From NCBI GenBank assembly GCA_017524145.1, contig JAFWUI010000041.1, forward strand, positions 1-51,230: a stretch of DNA of 51,230 nt. Direction: 5' to 3'. Both the position numbers and the translations under genes were made by a program. Below the pieces are notes generated by a model. It did not search any database. It was not told the DNA's origin and saw only the letters and a list, made by a program, of their open reading frames with translations. This stretch comes from Oxalobacter sp. Lineage in GTDB: Bacteria; Pseudomonadota; Gammaproteobacteria; Burkholderiales; Burkholderiaceae_D. Positions 3,279-34,196 of this stretch are shown piece after piece. How positions within the stretch are numbered: position 1 is the stretch's first letter; each line of letters starts with the position of its first letter.

Positions 3279-3456
3279 AAAAACTCCTTCGGCGGGTATT
3301 GTAACTGCTAAATCCTGAAGTAATCCATCTGATGGCAGTTGGGATGCCATCATCGGTTTGTTGCATTCTGGCACTATATGCCGTGGATTTACCGGCAAAA
3401 CCACAGCAATGTGCATTTCCTGACTATTGGCAGGGATATAGGTTGTCCAACTTGGC

Positions 3457-3462
3457 TATAAT
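3457..3462 (+). promoter_or_regulatory. -10 element of the btu operon
   Basis: TATAAT at 3457-3462 would start transcription near 3469, where the riboswitch fold begins. A clear -35 is not seen at the usual distance. Confidence 0.5.
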
Positions 3463-3469
3463 CCAAGTT

Positions 3470-3700
3470 TCTGGTGCCATACATGATTCAGATGTGTGGT
3501 TAAACGGGAAACACGATGTTTCAGCAATGCTGGCAGAACGTGTGCTGCCCCCGCAACGGTAAACAGGTGTTCATTGAACAGACCGTCCAACCACGCCACT
3601 GTGCAACAGCATGGGAAGGCGGACGGAACCTTCAGGTTTCCTTACCTGAGCCTGTAGCCCGGATACCGGCCAGAAAATGGCTGTACTGTGGACGGGGAAT
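3470..3700 (+). ncRNA. Cobalamin riboswitch
   Basis: The leader of btuB contains the ordered conserved elements of the class I cobalamin riboswitch: GGTGCC near 3473, TTAAACGGGAA at 3500-3510, GCTGCCCCCGCAACGGTAA at 3544-3562, CACTG at 3597-3601, ATGGGAAGGCGG at 3611-3622, and a B12-box-like AGCCCGGATACCGGCC near 3656-3671. It should bind adenosylcobalamin and switch off btuB and the downstream import genes when B12 is plentiful. About 130 bases separate its end from the btuB start, which is the expected space for an expression platform. Confidence 0.93.
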
Positions 3701-17072: not shown

Positions 17073-18704
17073 ATGGCATCAAAACTTGATAAGGCGTATA
17101 CCGTTGCCGGCGAAGGATACAATCGCTGGCTGGTTCCTACGTCTGCCCTGATGATCCATCTGTGCGTTGGTATGGGCTACGGTATGTCGGTGTTCTGGCT
17201 GCCAATGTCCAAGGCCATCGGTGTGGCTGAAGGGCTGGGTAAATCTAAGGCATGTCCTGCGGACATGAGTTGGTTCAGTGTTCTGTTTACCACAGAATGT
17301 GACTGGAAAGTCGTCCTGTGTTCTGTTGTGTTCTCTATCCTTTTCCTGATGCTGGGTACCACCACAGCAATCTTCGGTAATTGGCTTGAACACGCTGGTC
17401 CACGTCGTTGCGGTCTGTATTCCTGCATCTGCTTCTGCTCCTTCTTCTTCCTGATGGCTATCTCTATGGTTATCCATCAGCTGTGGCTGGCATGGGCTGC
17501 TTCGGTCATCGGTGGTATCGGGCTGGGGCTTGGTTACATCACGCCGGTTTCCACCCTGATCCGTTGGTTCCCTGACCGTGTCGGTATGGCGACCGGTATG
17601 GCTGTTGCAGGTTTCGGTGGCGGTGCAATGTGTGGTTCTCCTTTCGCTCAGCAGCTGATGGCATGGTTCGGTACTTCCACTTCTACCGGTCTGTGGCAGA
17701 CTTTCGCCTGCTTGGGTATAATTTACACCGTCTTCATGCTGGCTGGCTGTTTCACTATCCGTGTCCCACCTCCGGGCTACAAGCCAGCAGGTTGGGAACC
17801 TGATCCTAACAAGAATGTTTCCAGTGCCTTCAACGTTACCACTGCAAGCGCAGTCCGCACCCCTCAGTTCTGGTGCTGCTGGTGCATGCTGTTCCTGAAC
17901 ATCGCTGCTGGTATCGGTGTCCTGGCTATGGCATCCCCTCTGCTGCAGGAAGTGTTCGCAGGTGACCTGATCCATCTGCCAGGCGTCAAGTTCGATGACC
18001 TGACCGATGCACAGAAAGGTCAGGTTGCGATGATTGCAGCCGGTTTTGCTGGCCTGCTGTCCCTGTTCAACATTCTGGGCCGTTTCGTTTGGGCATCCCT
18101 GTCTGATAAGATTGGCCGCCGTTGGGTTTACTACATCTTTGCAGCAGGCGGTGCAGCGCTGTATGCATCCCTGCCATCCCTGGCTGCTTCCCTGAACCTG
18201 CTGCTGTTCCTGGCATGTACCTGCGTCTGCGTCTCCTTCTACGGTGGCGGTTATGCAGTTATCCCGGCTTACCTGAACGACCTGTATGGTCAGCAGTTCG
18301 TTGGTGCAATCCACGGCCGTGTCCTGACCGCTTGGTCTGCTGCAGGTCTGCTGTCTCCTCTGTTCATTAACGTCCTGCGTGAAATGCAGCTGAACGCTGG
18401 TGTTGCAAAGGCAGCGGCTTACTCCATGACCCTGTACTGTATGGCTGGTCTGCTGGTTCTGGAAATCGTGTTCATCACACTGATTCGTCCAGTCAATCCG
18501 AAGTGGCATATGACCCCAGAAGAATTCGCTGCTGAAAAGGCAATCCTGGAAGACAAGCTGAAAGCTGCTATGTCCGAAGGTGTTGTCAAAGGCAAGGAAG
18601 AAGTTGGTATGGGTATGTTCATCCTCCGCTGGGTATTTGTCGGTATCCCACTGGCATATGGCGTTGCGATGACAGCTATCCAGACGGCTAAGATGTTCAT
18701 CTGA
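17073..18704 (+). CDS. OFA-family (oxalate/formate antiporter family) MFS transporter
   Basis: A 543-residue 12-helix MFS carrier of the family typified by OxlT. Family blocks include the helix 4-5 region (GIGLGLGYITPVSTLIRWFPDRVG, read in parts) and NILGRFVWASLSDKIGR near 333-348. Aligned by eye with OxlT, Arg337 matches substrate-binding Arg272, but the position of OxlT Lys355 is Trp421. An extra segment with several Cys follows helix 1. The C-terminus (about 517-541, RWVFVGIPLAYGVAM) is an added membrane segment resembling the separate MFS transporter small subunit of other Burkholderiales. Codons are strikingly biased (almost all Leu as CTG, many GGT, CGT, TCC), implying very high expression. 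A perfect AAGGAG lies 8 bases before the ATG. Likely a carboxylate carrier; substrate not proven. Confidence 0.88.
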   Translation: MASKLDKAYTVAGEGYNRWLVPTSALMIHLCVGMGYGMSVFWLPMSKAIGVAEGLGKSKACPADMSWFSVLFTTECDWKVVLCSVVFSILFLMLGTTTAIFGNWLEHAGPRRCGLYSCICFCSFFFLMAISMVIHQLWLAWAASVIGGIGLGLGYITPVSTLIRWFPDRVGMATGMAVAGFGGGAMCGSPFAQQLMAWFGTSTSTGLWQTFACLGIIYTVFMLAGCFTIRVPPPGYKPAGWEPDPNKNVSSAFNVTTASAVRTPQFWCCWCMLFLNIAAGIGVLAMASPLLQEVFAGDLIHLPGVKFDDLTDAQKGQVAMIAAGFAGLLSLFNILGRFVWASLSDKIGRRWVYYIFAAGGAALYASLPSLAASLNLLLFLACTCVCVSFYGGGYAVIPAYLNDLYGQQFVGAIHGRVLTAWSAAGLLSPLFINVLREMQLNAGVAKAAAYSMTLYCMAGLLVLEIVFITLIRPVNPKWHMTPEEFAAEKAILEDKLKAAMSEGVVKGKEEVGMGMFILRWVFVGIPLAYGVAMTAIQTAKMFI

Positions 18705-31020: not shown

Positions 31021-33291
31021 TCAGGCAAGAGATGCACGGATGTTTTTGGCCGCTTCAACAAGATGGGTCAGGCTGGCAACCGTTTCTTTTTCACCACGGG
31101 TCTTCAGACCACAGTCAGGATTGATCCACAGCTGTTGTTTCGGGATACGTTTCAGCATTTCCTGGATGGCGTGCTCGATTTCTGCGGTATCAGGGATACG
31201 CGGGGAATGGATGTCATAGACACCAGGTCCTGTTTCTGTTTCAAAATGGTTTACCTTGAGTGAATCCAAGATGGTCAATTTGGAACGGGATGCCTCAAAG
31301 GTGATTACATCGGCATCCATTGCGTCAATCTCAGGGATGATTTCTTCGAATTCGCTATAACACATATGAGTGTGGATCTGGGTTTCAGGTTTGACCTTGG
31401 CGGAACACAGACGGAATGCCTTGATGGCAAAGTCCAGGTAATCCTTATGCCAGTCAGCCCGGCGCAATGGCAGCTTTTCCCGAAAGGCAGCTTCATCGAT
31501 TTGAATAATCCGGACACCAGCTTTTTCCAACTCCATGACTTCATCACGGATTGCCAGTCCTATCTGGTTCATCATTTCTTGCACTGAGATGTCTTCGCGT
31601 GGGAATGACCAGTTCAGGATAGTGACAGGACCAGTCAGCATCCCTTTGACATCTTTGTCTGTCAGGGAGTTTGCGTAGGCGATGTAATCAGTTGTAATGG
31701 ATTTTTCCCGTTTGATATCACCAAAGACGATAGGCGGTTTCAATCCTCGGGTACCATAGGACTGGACCCAGGCGTTGTCGGTAAAGACATAGCCAGTCAG
31801 GTTTTCTCCAAAGAATTCAACCATATCATTGCGTTCAAACTCGCCATGGACGAGTACATCCAAGCCGATTTTTTCCTGTAGCGCAATGCAGTCCTTGATG
31901 AAGGCCTTGGCATTGGTACGGTATTCCGTTTCACTGATTTCACCACGGCGGAATTTTGCTCGGTTGCTTTTTACAGCTGCTGTCTGTGGGAAGGAACCGA
32001 TAGTGGTGGTTGGCAGTAAAGGTAGTTGCAGCCGCTTGTGTTGGATGCCCTGGCGTTCCTTACGTGGCATTTCACGGTGAAAGTCTGCCTCGTTCAGGGA
32101 TGCAGTACGGGCACGGACTTCAGCGTCTGTCCGCAGGGTACCCTGATGCAGTTCTTGGTTGGCAATGAAGGCAGGGTCTTTGGTATAGTCAGGCAGGTCA
32201 GACAGACGGCAGATTTCCTGCATTTCTTCCAGTTTTTCGTAAGCGAATGCAAAATGGCGTTTGATCCCATTGCTGAGTTTGGTTTCCTGCTTGACCGTAT
32301 AGGGAACATGAAGCAGGGAACAGGAAGTACTGAGCACTACCTGTGGATTGATAGCTTTTAGGTCTTCAAGAGTTTTTAAGACATCAGCATAGCTGCTCCG
32401 CCAGATGTTCTTACCATTGATGAGTCCAGCAAACAGGATTTTATCTGATGGGAAACCATATTTGGCAATCAGACCAGAGGTCTGTTTGCCTTCGACAAAA
32501 TCAAGTCCAATACCGTCAAACGGCAAGGCGCAGATTTCTCCGTAGCAGTCACGGACGTCTCCGAAATAGGTCTGCAGCAGGACTTTGACATTGCCTTTTT
32601 CCGTAAGTATCTGTGTGTAAAGCCGTTTGAAGAAGACGGTATCTGCATCTGTCAGGTCCATAACCAAGTAGGGTTCATCTATCTGGAGCCATTCAACCTG
32701 GTTGGTATTGCAGGCTTTTAGGATGTCAATATAGGCATTGACAATATCCTCAGTAAAACCAGCAGCGGTCTTATTGCCGGTGTAACGGGCAAGTTTCAGG
32801 AAGGTGAAAGGGCCGACAATGACAGGTTTTGTCTTGATACCAAGATGGGAAGCCTGTCTGAAACCATCCAGAAATGCGTCGGATTTCAGTTTGATCTGCA
32901 TACCGTCATCCAGTTCAGATACGATGTAATGGTAGTTTGTGTTGAACCATTTTTTCATTGCACAAGCCCTGACGTCGCCGAGACGTCCCTGATATCCTCT
33001 TGCCATAGAGAAATAGGTTCCGATGTCATCAAAATGCAGTTCTTCGTAACGTTCTGGAATGGCACTCAGCATGTATGCGGTATCAAGCATACCGTCATAA
33101 AGGGAATAGTCGTTGGATGGGATGAACGCATTACCTGCTGCCTGTTGGACTTTCCATTGGCCTGCCCGTAAAACAGCCGCTGTATTGGTCAGGGCATGTC
33201 TATCGATTTCATTGCGGAAATATTTTTCCGTAGCCCATTTCAGTTCCCGGTTGAGGCCGATTCGGGGAAACCCGATGATTGAATATTGCAT
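31021..33291 (-). CDS. metE: Cobalamin-independent methionine synthase
   Basis: Transfers a methyl group from 5-methyltetrahydropteroyl-triglutamate to homocysteine without B12. 756 residues, normal length. The N-terminal MQYSIIGFPRIGLNRELKWATE is canonical. The zinc site in the C-terminal barrel is complete: H642 and C644 (HMC motif), E666 and C727 (NPDCGLKTR). AAGGAA precedes the ATG. It coexists with a full B12 import operon, but its leader shows no cobalamin riboswitch; instead a set of overlapping hairpins and LTTR-like sites lie upstream. Confidence 0.96.
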   Translation of the reverse strand: MQYSIIGFPRIGLNRELKWATEKYFRNEIDRHALTNTAAVLRAGQWKVQQAAGNAFIPSNDYSLYDGMLDTAYMLSAIPERYEELHFDDIGTYFSMARGYQGRLGDVRACAMKKWFNTNYHYIVSELDDGMQIKLKSDAFLDGFRQASHLGIKTKPVIVGPFTFLKLARYTGNKTAAGFTEDIVNAYIDILKACNTNQVEWLQIDEPYLVMDLTDADTVFFKRLYTQILTEKGNVKVLLQTYFGDVRDCYGEICALPFDGIGLDFVEGKQTSGLIAKYGFPSDKILFAGLINGKNIWRSSYADVLKTLEDLKAINPQVVLSTSCSLLHVPYTVKQETKLSNGIKRHFAFAYEKLEEMQEICRLSDLPDYTKDPAFIANQELHQGTLRTDAEVRARTASLNEADFHREMPRKERQGIQHKRLQLPLLPTTTIGSFPQTAAVKSNRAKFRRGEISETEYRTNAKAFIKDCIALQEKIGLDVLVHGEFERNDMVEFFGENLTGYVFTDNAWVQSYGTRGLKPPIVFGDIKREKSITTDYIAYANSLTDKDVKGMLTGPVTILNWSFPREDISVQEMMNQIGLAIRDEVMELEKAGVRIIQIDEAAFREKLPLRRADWHKDYLDFAIKAFRLCSAKVKPETQIHTHMCYSEFEEIIPEIDAMDADVITFEASRSKLTILDSLKVNHFETETGPGVYDIHSPRIPDTAEIEHAIQEMLKRIPKQQLWINPDCGLKTRGEKETVASLTHLVEAAKNIRASLA

Positions 33292-33332
33292 ATGTCATTT
33301 CCTTCATTGAAACAGAAAAGGCGCACAACCAT

Positions 33333-33391
33333 GCCGTACAGTTGCGGGCTGGACGGCAGGAGTGATGCCTGCCATCTTGTTGAAGATGGCA
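33333..33391 (-). promoter_or_regulatory. Chained overlapping hairpins in the metE leader
   Basis: In order of transcription: hairpin A, a perfect 9-bp stem (33383-33391 with 33370-33378, 4-base loop); hairpin B, 6 bp (33368-33373 with 33355-33360); hairpin C, 5 bp (33353-33357 with 33333-33337). A and B share 33370-33373; B and C share 33355-33357. Each therefore excludes its neighbour, the logic of an attenuator or riboswitch. The last stem ends about 40 bases before the metE start. Confidence 0.45.
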
Positions 33392-33473
33392 TATCTAAAA
33401 TGAGTGTCATGACGGTGAATCAGTCTATCTACTATCAGTAAATCTGTAAAATACGAATTTTCAGCTTTTGGTT

Positions 33474-33488
33474 ATAGTTTTAAGCTAT
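33474..33488. promoter_or_regulatory. LysR-type box upstream of metE
   Basis: ATAG-N7-CTAT, the classic T-N11-A dyad bound by LTTRs, lies about 183 bases before the metE ATG. A second palindrome (ATCTACC-CT-GGTAGAT, 33524-33539) lies 35 bases further upstream. Confidence 0.4.
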
Positions 33489-33560
33489 GGTGAAAGGATT
33501 TGTATTTTGGAAGAGGATTGGGTATCTACCCTGGTAGATTGCTGAATATGGTATCGGGAT

Positions 33561-33591
33561 AAAAAAAGGCCATGCCTATGAAGGCATGGCC
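33561..33591 (-). terminator. Strong rho-independent terminator
   Basis: On the minus strand GGCCATGCCT pairs perfectly with AGGCATGGCC (10 bp, 33591-33582 with 33577-33568, 4-base loop) and is followed by seven T. It would end the candidate sRNA, or less likely the transcript of the gene ending at 33756. Confidence 0.9.
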
Positions 33592-33643
33592 GAGAAAAAC
33601 AAAACTTGAATAGGGAATCCCATTATGTAGAAACAGGAGATTG
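33561..33643 (-). ncRNA. Candidate FNR-activated small RNA
   Basis: On the minus strand, a perfect FNR/Anr site (TTGAT-N4-ATCAA, 33678-33691) is centred 41.5 bases upstream of 33643, the canonical class II activator position. A -10-like TTTATT (33654-33649) fits that start. The predicted transcript is about 80 bases, begins with a CTCCT-containing single-stranded region able to pair with ribosome-binding sites, carries a U-rich stretch, and ends in a strong GC-rich hairpin with seven T. No ORF is evident. Anaerobically induced FNR-dependent sRNAs of this size are known (FnrS in E. coli, AniS in Neisseria). Homology was not tested. Confidence 0.5.
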
Positions 33644-33652
33644 CTTTCAATA

Positions 33653-33676
33653 AAAAGTGACAGATTGTTCACTTTT
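33653..33676. promoter_or_regulatory. Inverted repeat between FNR site and -10 of the candidate sRNA
   Basis: AAAAGTGA (33653-33660) and TCACTTTT (33669-33676) form an 8-bp dyad with an 8-base spacer, centred about 21 bases before the predicted start. Its right arm overlaps the FNR palindrome, so a second regulator could compete there. Confidence 0.35.
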
Positions 33677-33696
33677 ATTGATATATATCAATAAAA
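33673..33696. promoter_or_regulatory. FNR/Anr-type binding site within a 24-bp palindrome
   Basis: A perfect 24-bp palindrome whose core is TTGATATATATCAA (33678-33691), an exact match to the FNR consensus TTGAT-N4-ATCAA. It precedes the predicted minus-strand sRNA. Confidence 0.65.
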
Positions 33697-33755
33697 TAAG
33701 AGGGAATATCCTGTTTTCTGGCGGTTTCCGTTGTGAAATGGCAAAAATTGAAGTT

Positions 33756-34196
33756 TCAGACACCAAGTCCATAGCTTATGGCATCGTCATTGATTTCTTC
33801 ATGGCATGAGACAAGGATTCCTTTGTCGATGGTCAGGGTCAGGTACCGTTCATAAACAGACGAATAACCGATGCAGATGGCATTCTGCAGTTCGCCTTGC
33901 GGCAGGCTGAATGTACCAGAATACCATTCGGCAAAGACACGTCCATCGGCATCAGGGAACACGGTTCTCAAGTCAACAACCTGACCGTTTTCCAACATCC
34001 CTTCCAGTTCTGTCAGGAAAAGCCTGTCATCTTCCAGTACCCAAGTACCCACATAACCACGCCATAAGGCAGTATGTGGTACATAGAAATCAGGACGGTT
34101 CCCGTGCTTTTCAAACCAGGCTTCCAGTGGCTGCTCATGGGGCAGGTCACAACGTTTGCCCTGATAGGTCAGTTTTTCAGGAACCTGTGGCAGCAT
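33756..34196 (-). CDS. Hypothetical protein, 146 residues
   Basis: No family recognised. A soluble protein without signal peptide or membrane segment. It is rich in aromatic residues and beta strands (YVGTWVLEDDRLFLTEL, VFAEWYSGTFSLPQGEL, ICIGYSSVYERYLTLTIDKGILV), suggesting a small beta barrel or sandwich. One Cys lies near the N-terminus (KRCDLP). The start is well supported by AAAGGAG five bases upstream. Divergent from the zinc-ribbon gene at 34350. It is followed by the sRNA region. Confidence 0.7.
   Translation of the reverse strand: MLPQVPEKLTYQGKRCDLPHEQPLEAWFEKHGNRPDFYVPHTALWRGYVGTWVLEDDRLFLTELEGMLENGQVVDLRTVFPDADGRVFAEWYSGTFSLPQGELQNAICIGYSSVYERYLTLTIDKGILVSCHEEINDDAISYGLGV

Follow-up and report, generated by a model that had tools for sequence, protein, structure and literature searches.

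A candidate small RNA gene with its own promoter and terminator beside an FNR-like palindrome in three related Oxalobacter genomes

The stretch of DNA analysed here (the window, 51,230 nucleotides) belongs to G000, a draft genome of 1.81 Mb from the strictly anaerobic genus Oxalobacter, in which it forms contig 25. It carries metE on the minus strand at 31021-33291 and, further upstream on the same strand, a gene at 33756-34196 for which no Pfam or NCBIfam match was found at E<=0.001. Between the two lies an element of ~140 bp that, among the 13 genomes of the genus compared, is shared with G062 and G063; these three carriers are 87% (G000), 91% (G062) and 99% (G063) complete, and the other ten genomes are non-carriers. 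The features of the locus are as follows.

33756..34196, minus strand: upstream gene, 146 aa, which adjoins the element in G062 and lies ~1.5 kb away in G063
33673..33696, no strand: perfect 24-bp palindrome TTTTATTGATATATATCAATAAAA, a putative operator dyad that holds the FNR-like TTGAT-N4-ATCAA at 33678-33691
33647..33655, minus strand: third half-site copy TTTTATTGA, overlapping the -35 and invariant in three species
33645..33650, minus strand: predicted -35 hexamer TTGAAA, invariant, found by promoter scan in all three species
33628..33644, minus strand: promoter spacer of 17 bases, poorly conserved, containing position 33643 and a CTCCT motif
33622..33627, minus strand: predicted -10 hexamer CATAAT behind the 17-bp spacer, invariant, found by promoter scan in all three species
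33561..33615, minus strand: predicted small RNA of ~55 nt, from promoter position, conservation and terminator, its start uncertain by a few bases
33595..33614, minus strand: unpaired 5' region CCTATTCAAGTTTTGTTTTT, the candidate seed, with 19 of 20 columns invariant and unpaired in all three folds
33561..33591, minus strand: intrinsic terminator with a stem at 33591-33568 and seven T, pairing kept in three species

Strong blastn matches to the element within the genus were found only in G000, G063 (E 7e-46, 89% identity) and G062 (E 3e-26, 80% identity over the matched part); all 13 genomes gave some match at E<=10, those of the non-carriers being short fragments (best E 0.036). Among 60 genomes sampled from the larger family, 17 had a match at E<=0.1, and only G000 was matched over more than 41 bases. 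A covariance model of the three sequences, run with stricter filters that are able to lose weak matches, gave one match each in 3 of 392 family genomes, the same three carriers, and matched 2 of the 346 more complete family genomes. A pattern scan of GTDB 220 (CATAAT, a gap of 5-9 and CTATTCAAGTTTTG) returned four stretches. Two of them belong to Oxalobacter MAGs, namely Tb.RUG.538 and MBin.057, that are identical to G062 and G063 over 3.1 kb around the element, and the RUG in the first name presumably stands for rumen genomes. Seed-pattern matches in Omnitrophota and Bathyarchaeota (L169, L172) were short and were taken as chance, and viral contigs contained no match to this pattern.

In the three-species alignment of the element, 100 of 142 columns are invariant; at the fourfold-degenerate sites of metE the figure is 59 of 251. 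Pairwise identities are 89, 76 and 77% for the element versus 47, 40 and 39% for these sites. The invariant columns include 22 of the 24 in the palindrome, all 15 of columns 42-56 (the third TTTTATTGA copy with the -35), 8 of 17 in the spacer, all six of the -10, one of the next seven, 19 of 20 in CCTATTCAAGTTTTGTnTTT and all seven of the T tract. The promoter scan gives TTGAAA-17-CATAAT (10/12) in each species, and here it is the best site (33650-33622); a weaker second candidate, TTGATA-16-AACAAT (9/12), occurs only here and in G063. The conserved promoter and the terminator predict an RNA of ~55 nt from ~33615, instead of the ~80-base transcript from 33643 that had been put forward in an earlier note on this DNA. 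The arithmetic behind that start is exact, as the dyad centre at 33684.5 is 41.5 bases from 33643, but the position falls in a poorly conserved stretch, and the -10-like element ascribed to it is poor: at the required spacing the sequence reads TTTATT or TATTGA. For the box, the 5' end and the terminator, which that proposal would have conserved jointly, the outcome is mixed, with conservation of the first and the last but not of the 5' end at 33643. The CTCCT said to stand near this 5' end is present in this genome, but it lies in the promoter spacer and reads CTCC, CTTC and CTTG in the three species, so that we rejected it as a conserved anti-ribosome-binding motif; the pattern TTGA-N6-TCAA...TCTCC has matches in 8 of the 13 genomes but locates the element in G000 only.

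The terminator is as the earlier note had described it, with ten pairs (seven of them GC), a loop of four and seven T. Two pairs of its stem are changed on both sides, a weak test over three sequences, in which 47 of 500 shuffles equalled this count. The fold of 33561-33643 has a z-score of -5.27, and the predicted RNAs of the three species (55-56 nt) each consist of an unpaired 5' part and the terminator (z -6.9, -4.8 and -3.0). The claim that no protein is encoded needs qualifying: a 15-codon ORF does exist at 33623-33576, yet coding is unlikely because its ATG (33623) overlaps the -10, the frame in G063 continues for 30 codons, beyond the terminator, and this ATG is missing in G062. A small peptide was rejected.

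A position upstream of metE, part of the original description, is true of this genome and false in G062 and G063. The metE upstream region is alignable in both relatives and does not contain the element, which is located elsewhere in each; the position is thus incidental, and a link with metE was rejected. In G062 the order is a zinc-ribbon-like gene (minus strand), the homolog of the 33756-34196 gene, the element, a facing gene and rpiA. In G063 an opposite-strand NhaR-like LysR gene (212.7 bits against the NhaR model, cut-off 219) stands between that homolog and the element. Downstream of the element, the facing gene and then rpiA follow in both relatives, and metE follows here. Because the neighbours change on both sides, the element is no metE leader, and it is more than the 3' part of the gene upstream of it. 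The comparison supports the view that the element is an autonomous, conserved unit of promoter, RNA and terminator; like trans-acting sRNA genes, it would have its own promoter and its own terminator and is kept apart from its neighbours. On this sequence evidence, a real short small-RNA gene shared by the three related genomes is very likely.

As regards metE itself, the MetE proteins of G062 and G063 are 83-84% identical to that of the window and those of five other genomes of the genus 42-45%; the genus thus holds two very different MetE lineages (L053-L059), and MetE was not found in 5 of the 13 genomes. The window also contains a cobalamin riboswitch (3455-3688, 85.1 bits), and the same genome has the B12-independent MetE.

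It is unlikely that there is no small RNA here and that the hairpin belongs to the 33756-34196 gene as its terminator, with the palindromes being incidental or forming a second, weak terminator. The hairpin does lie ~165 bases past the stop codon of that gene on the same strand, and a stem also folds at 33649-33681 both here (-6.3 kcal/mol, z -2.44) and in G063 (-3.0 kcal/mol, z -2.72). This stem is, however, weak in G062 (-1.5 kcal/mol, z -0.67), the -35, the spacing, the -10 and the 5' stretch are all conserved, and in G063 the element is 89% conserved even though the NhaR-like gene of the opposite strand intervenes.

The perfect FNR consensus reported for the locus is present as TTGATATATATCAA at 33678-33691, which is the sole match to TTGAT-N4-ATCAA in the window at up to one mismatch. 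At this tolerance the single match is rarer than chance (shuffle mean 3.52; 91 of 100 shuffles of the window have at least one). A perfect consensus is expected 0.12 times per window in a first-order Markov simulation, and the extended form of the site arose in none of 100 such runs. The site is unusual for being perfect and for lying within a perfect palindrome of 24 bp; the next longest of even length in the window have 16 bp. The box reads TTGAT-N4-ATCAA in G063 and TTGAC-N4-ATCAA in G062. Three copies of TTTTATTGA, one of them inverted, stand within the 50 bases 33647-33696, and the whole window has seven on both strands. Measured from the start of the conserved promoter at ~33615, the dyad centre is at about -69.5. 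We rejected a regulon built on the palindrome. Of the near copies among the loci examined, one in G000 (L021) has one mismatch and lies inside a coding region, two in L090 and L120 have three mismatches, and the few in other genera (L004, L005, L006 and L012) have unrelated neighbours. An IHF site was also rejected, as the IHF consensus does not fit.

The proposed dependence on FNR is at odds with the protein content of the carriers. The Crp/FNR helix-turn-helix (PF13545, cut-off 27 bits) was found over the cut-off in 8 of the 13 genomes of the genus, all eight among the ten non-carriers. The three carriers have no match over the cut-off, and neither have G066 and G067, two drafts without the element; all 14 controls do have one. 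With an FNR-like protein of the genus as query, orthologs (E<1e-130) were found in the same eight genomes, whereas G000 and G062 gave no match and G063 one at E 0.055 only. The element and this protein were thus not found together in any of the 13 genomes. The query itself scores 158.7 bits against the NCBIfam Fnr model, below its cut-off of 228. Since no FNR-type protein was found in the carrier genomes, an anaerobic switch probably fails as an explanation of the element.

The FNR-like proteins of the eight Oxalobacter genomes (L126, L152-L159) keep the ETVSR helix and have two to four cysteines ahead of it. The cysteine pattern of E. coli FNR is CX2CX5C, and because their cysteine positions do not fit it, these proteins may be without oxygen sensing. 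In G060 (L136, 1039-2427), a Crp-family regulator is followed directly by an iron-sulphur-repair di-iron-like gene, which we take to be RIC/ScdA-like.

The same sRNA gene could instead be governed by a Crp/FNR-family regulator that is hidden in assembly gaps or too diverged for the profile, although this strikes us as distinctly unlikely. Sites of the form TTGAY-N4-ATCAA with such spacing are typical of the Crp/FNR family, G000 and G062 are incomplete, and PF13545 rows below the cut-off occur in all 13 genomes, the carriers included (best 18.1 bits in G000, 22.2 in G062 and 20.0 in G063). These rows, however, span only parts of the profile (29-32 of 70 positions in the carriers), where all 14 controls pass the cut-off. 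G063 is nearly complete, and the chance that gaps conceal the gene in all three carriers is 0.13 x 0.09 x 0.01, or ~1e-4, if the gaps are independent, so that absence through assembly gaps alone is unlikely. Nor is there a sign of a regulon, as perfect consensus sites number 3 in G000, 5 in G062 (its own TTGAC element excluded) and 5 in G063, compared with 0-6 in the eight genomes that have the protein. Control by FNR itself, bound at -41.5 of a class II promoter that starts at 33643 and yields an RNA of ~83 nt whose CTCCT blocks ribosome-binding sites, is very improbable: the consensus is perfect within an extended palindrome here and in G063 (with TTGAC in G062), gonococcal fnrS is described with the same consensus at -41.5 (PMC3032703) and TTTTTATTGAAA, the would-be site of its -10, is invariant, but the carriers have no Crp/FNR helix-turn-helix over the cut-off, the -10 at the required place is poor, the start and the CTCCT region are poorly conserved and a better conserved promoter lies downstream.

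We therefore favour, as the probable reading, that the element is a lineage-specific gene for a trans-acting sRNA of one Oxalobacter branch, with its own promoter and terminator and a regulator other than FNR. Sigma-70 RNA polymerase would initiate near 33615 at TTGAAA-17-CATAAT, and transcription would end at the terminator (33591-33561). The resulting RNA of ~55 nt would consist of an unpaired, near-invariant 5' stretch (CCUAUUCAAGUUUUG...), a U-rich stretch, the terminator hairpin and a U tail. Such an RNA would probably act in trans, its 5' stretch pairing with mRNAs, perhaps assisted by a chaperone such as Hfq. Control of the promoter probably lies with a DNA-binding protein distinct from FNR, one that reads TTTTATTGA half-sites, an idea formed post hoc and suggested by the dyad at about -69.5 together with the third half-site over the -35; this regulator would bind the half-sites of the dyad and the third copy. 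The near-consensus promoter and the half-site lying over its -35 make repression seem slightly more likely than activation. Should the loss of FNR predate the split of the three species, the palindrome would since have been maintained by something else.

For the target of such an RNA, one match in the window provides a lead.

17080..17089, plus strand: candidate pairing site CAAAACTTGA, the exact complement of ten seed nucleotides, within codons 3-6 of a gene that encodes an MFS transporter

This gene (17073-18704) has AGGAG just before CAAAACTTGA; it scores 276.3 bits against an L-lactate MFS model (cut-off 320) and 144.3 against an oxalate/formate antiport model (cut-off 374.85). Pairing at the start of its mRNA (17073) would block translation, and this start is a possible target of the sRNA, as a lead only. 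In a duplex scan of the 5' stretch against the 45 predicted genes of the window, the best energy was -13.8 kcal/mol (mean -8.5, s.d. 1.9); the transporter ranks third, at -11.4 kcal/mol, and no target stands out by energy. As 54 of 2,000 shuffled seeds (2.7%) also have a 10-nt match among 111 start regions, the match is a lead and not a result. Among the loci examined, there is one homolog of the transporter, in the non-carrier G067, and it is present without its start.

The layout resembles that of FnrS of the Enterobacteriaceae and of gonococcal fnrS/AniS, which are presented in PMC3032703 as short intergenic RNAs with their own promoter and a rho-independent terminator, and with TTGAT-N4-ATCAA upstream. 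That source places the perfect consensus of gonococcal fnrS at -41.5 and reports a transcript of 108 nt and, for a fusion, 260-fold anaerobic induction, and E. coli fnrS is cited there as class II at -41.5; FnrS is also reviewed in PMC8139620. Unlike these systems, the Oxalobacter carriers have no Crp/FNR match over the cut-off, the dyad of the element is probably at about -69.5 (-41.5 fits only the assumed start at 33643) and the predicted RNA has ~55 nt, compared with 108 nt for gonococcal fnrS (PMC3032703). In Rfam, the region 33300-33760 gave 16 matches at E<=10, among which the names FnrS and AniS are absent; AniS may be without a model. The element also resembles the betaproteobacterial RF02278 (bdhR1, ncS27), described with a strong terminator and CU-rich unpaired stretches and, as toxic small RNAs, with 57-92 nt in B. 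cenocepacia (PMC5688073, PMC11722255; also treated in PMC7011215). Membership of this family was rejected, as the element scores 21.4 bits (gathering score 50), mostly through the terminator, and its 5' stretch differs; no genome of the 13 has RF02278 over the cut-off, and weak matches occur in 12 of the 13 and in 13 of the 14 controls. The best weak Rfam match, to VqmR (RF02834; 29.8 bits, gathering score 76), was taken as a chance similarity of AT-rich stems and a terminator, as it is far below the cut-off and aligns the promoter region as stems. VqmR, Spot 42 and the other Rfam families were all rejected, as each is under its gathering score. At the contig end (51103-51218), STnc490 was matched at 58.7 bits (gathering score 56); as we take STnc490 to belong to IS200-type insertion sequences, this is probably the end of an IS200-like element and no independent sRNA. 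The articles retrieved for Oxalobacter formigenes and small RNAs concern other subjects by their titles and abstract openings, which describe no Oxalobacter sRNA, and in the records retrieved for FNR in Oxalobacter nothing relevant was found.

In summary, the element is a concrete candidate for an sRNA gene in Oxalobacter, for which conservation in three species gives a short 5' seed and an operator. It also illustrates that a textbook FNR box and an exact -41.5 spacing can mislead, as FNR appears to be missing from the genomes in which the box is kept. A further-reaching version, which we regard as doubtful, is that the FNR-like palindrome was kept or co-opted by an unrelated regulator reading TTTTATTGA after the loss of Crp/FNR, and now controls a family of ~55-nt sRNAs that tunes carbon-acid transport. 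If true, a regulatory site would have outlived its regulator, and a new sRNA family would tune a lactate/oxalate-type MFS transporter in this branch of Oxalobacter.
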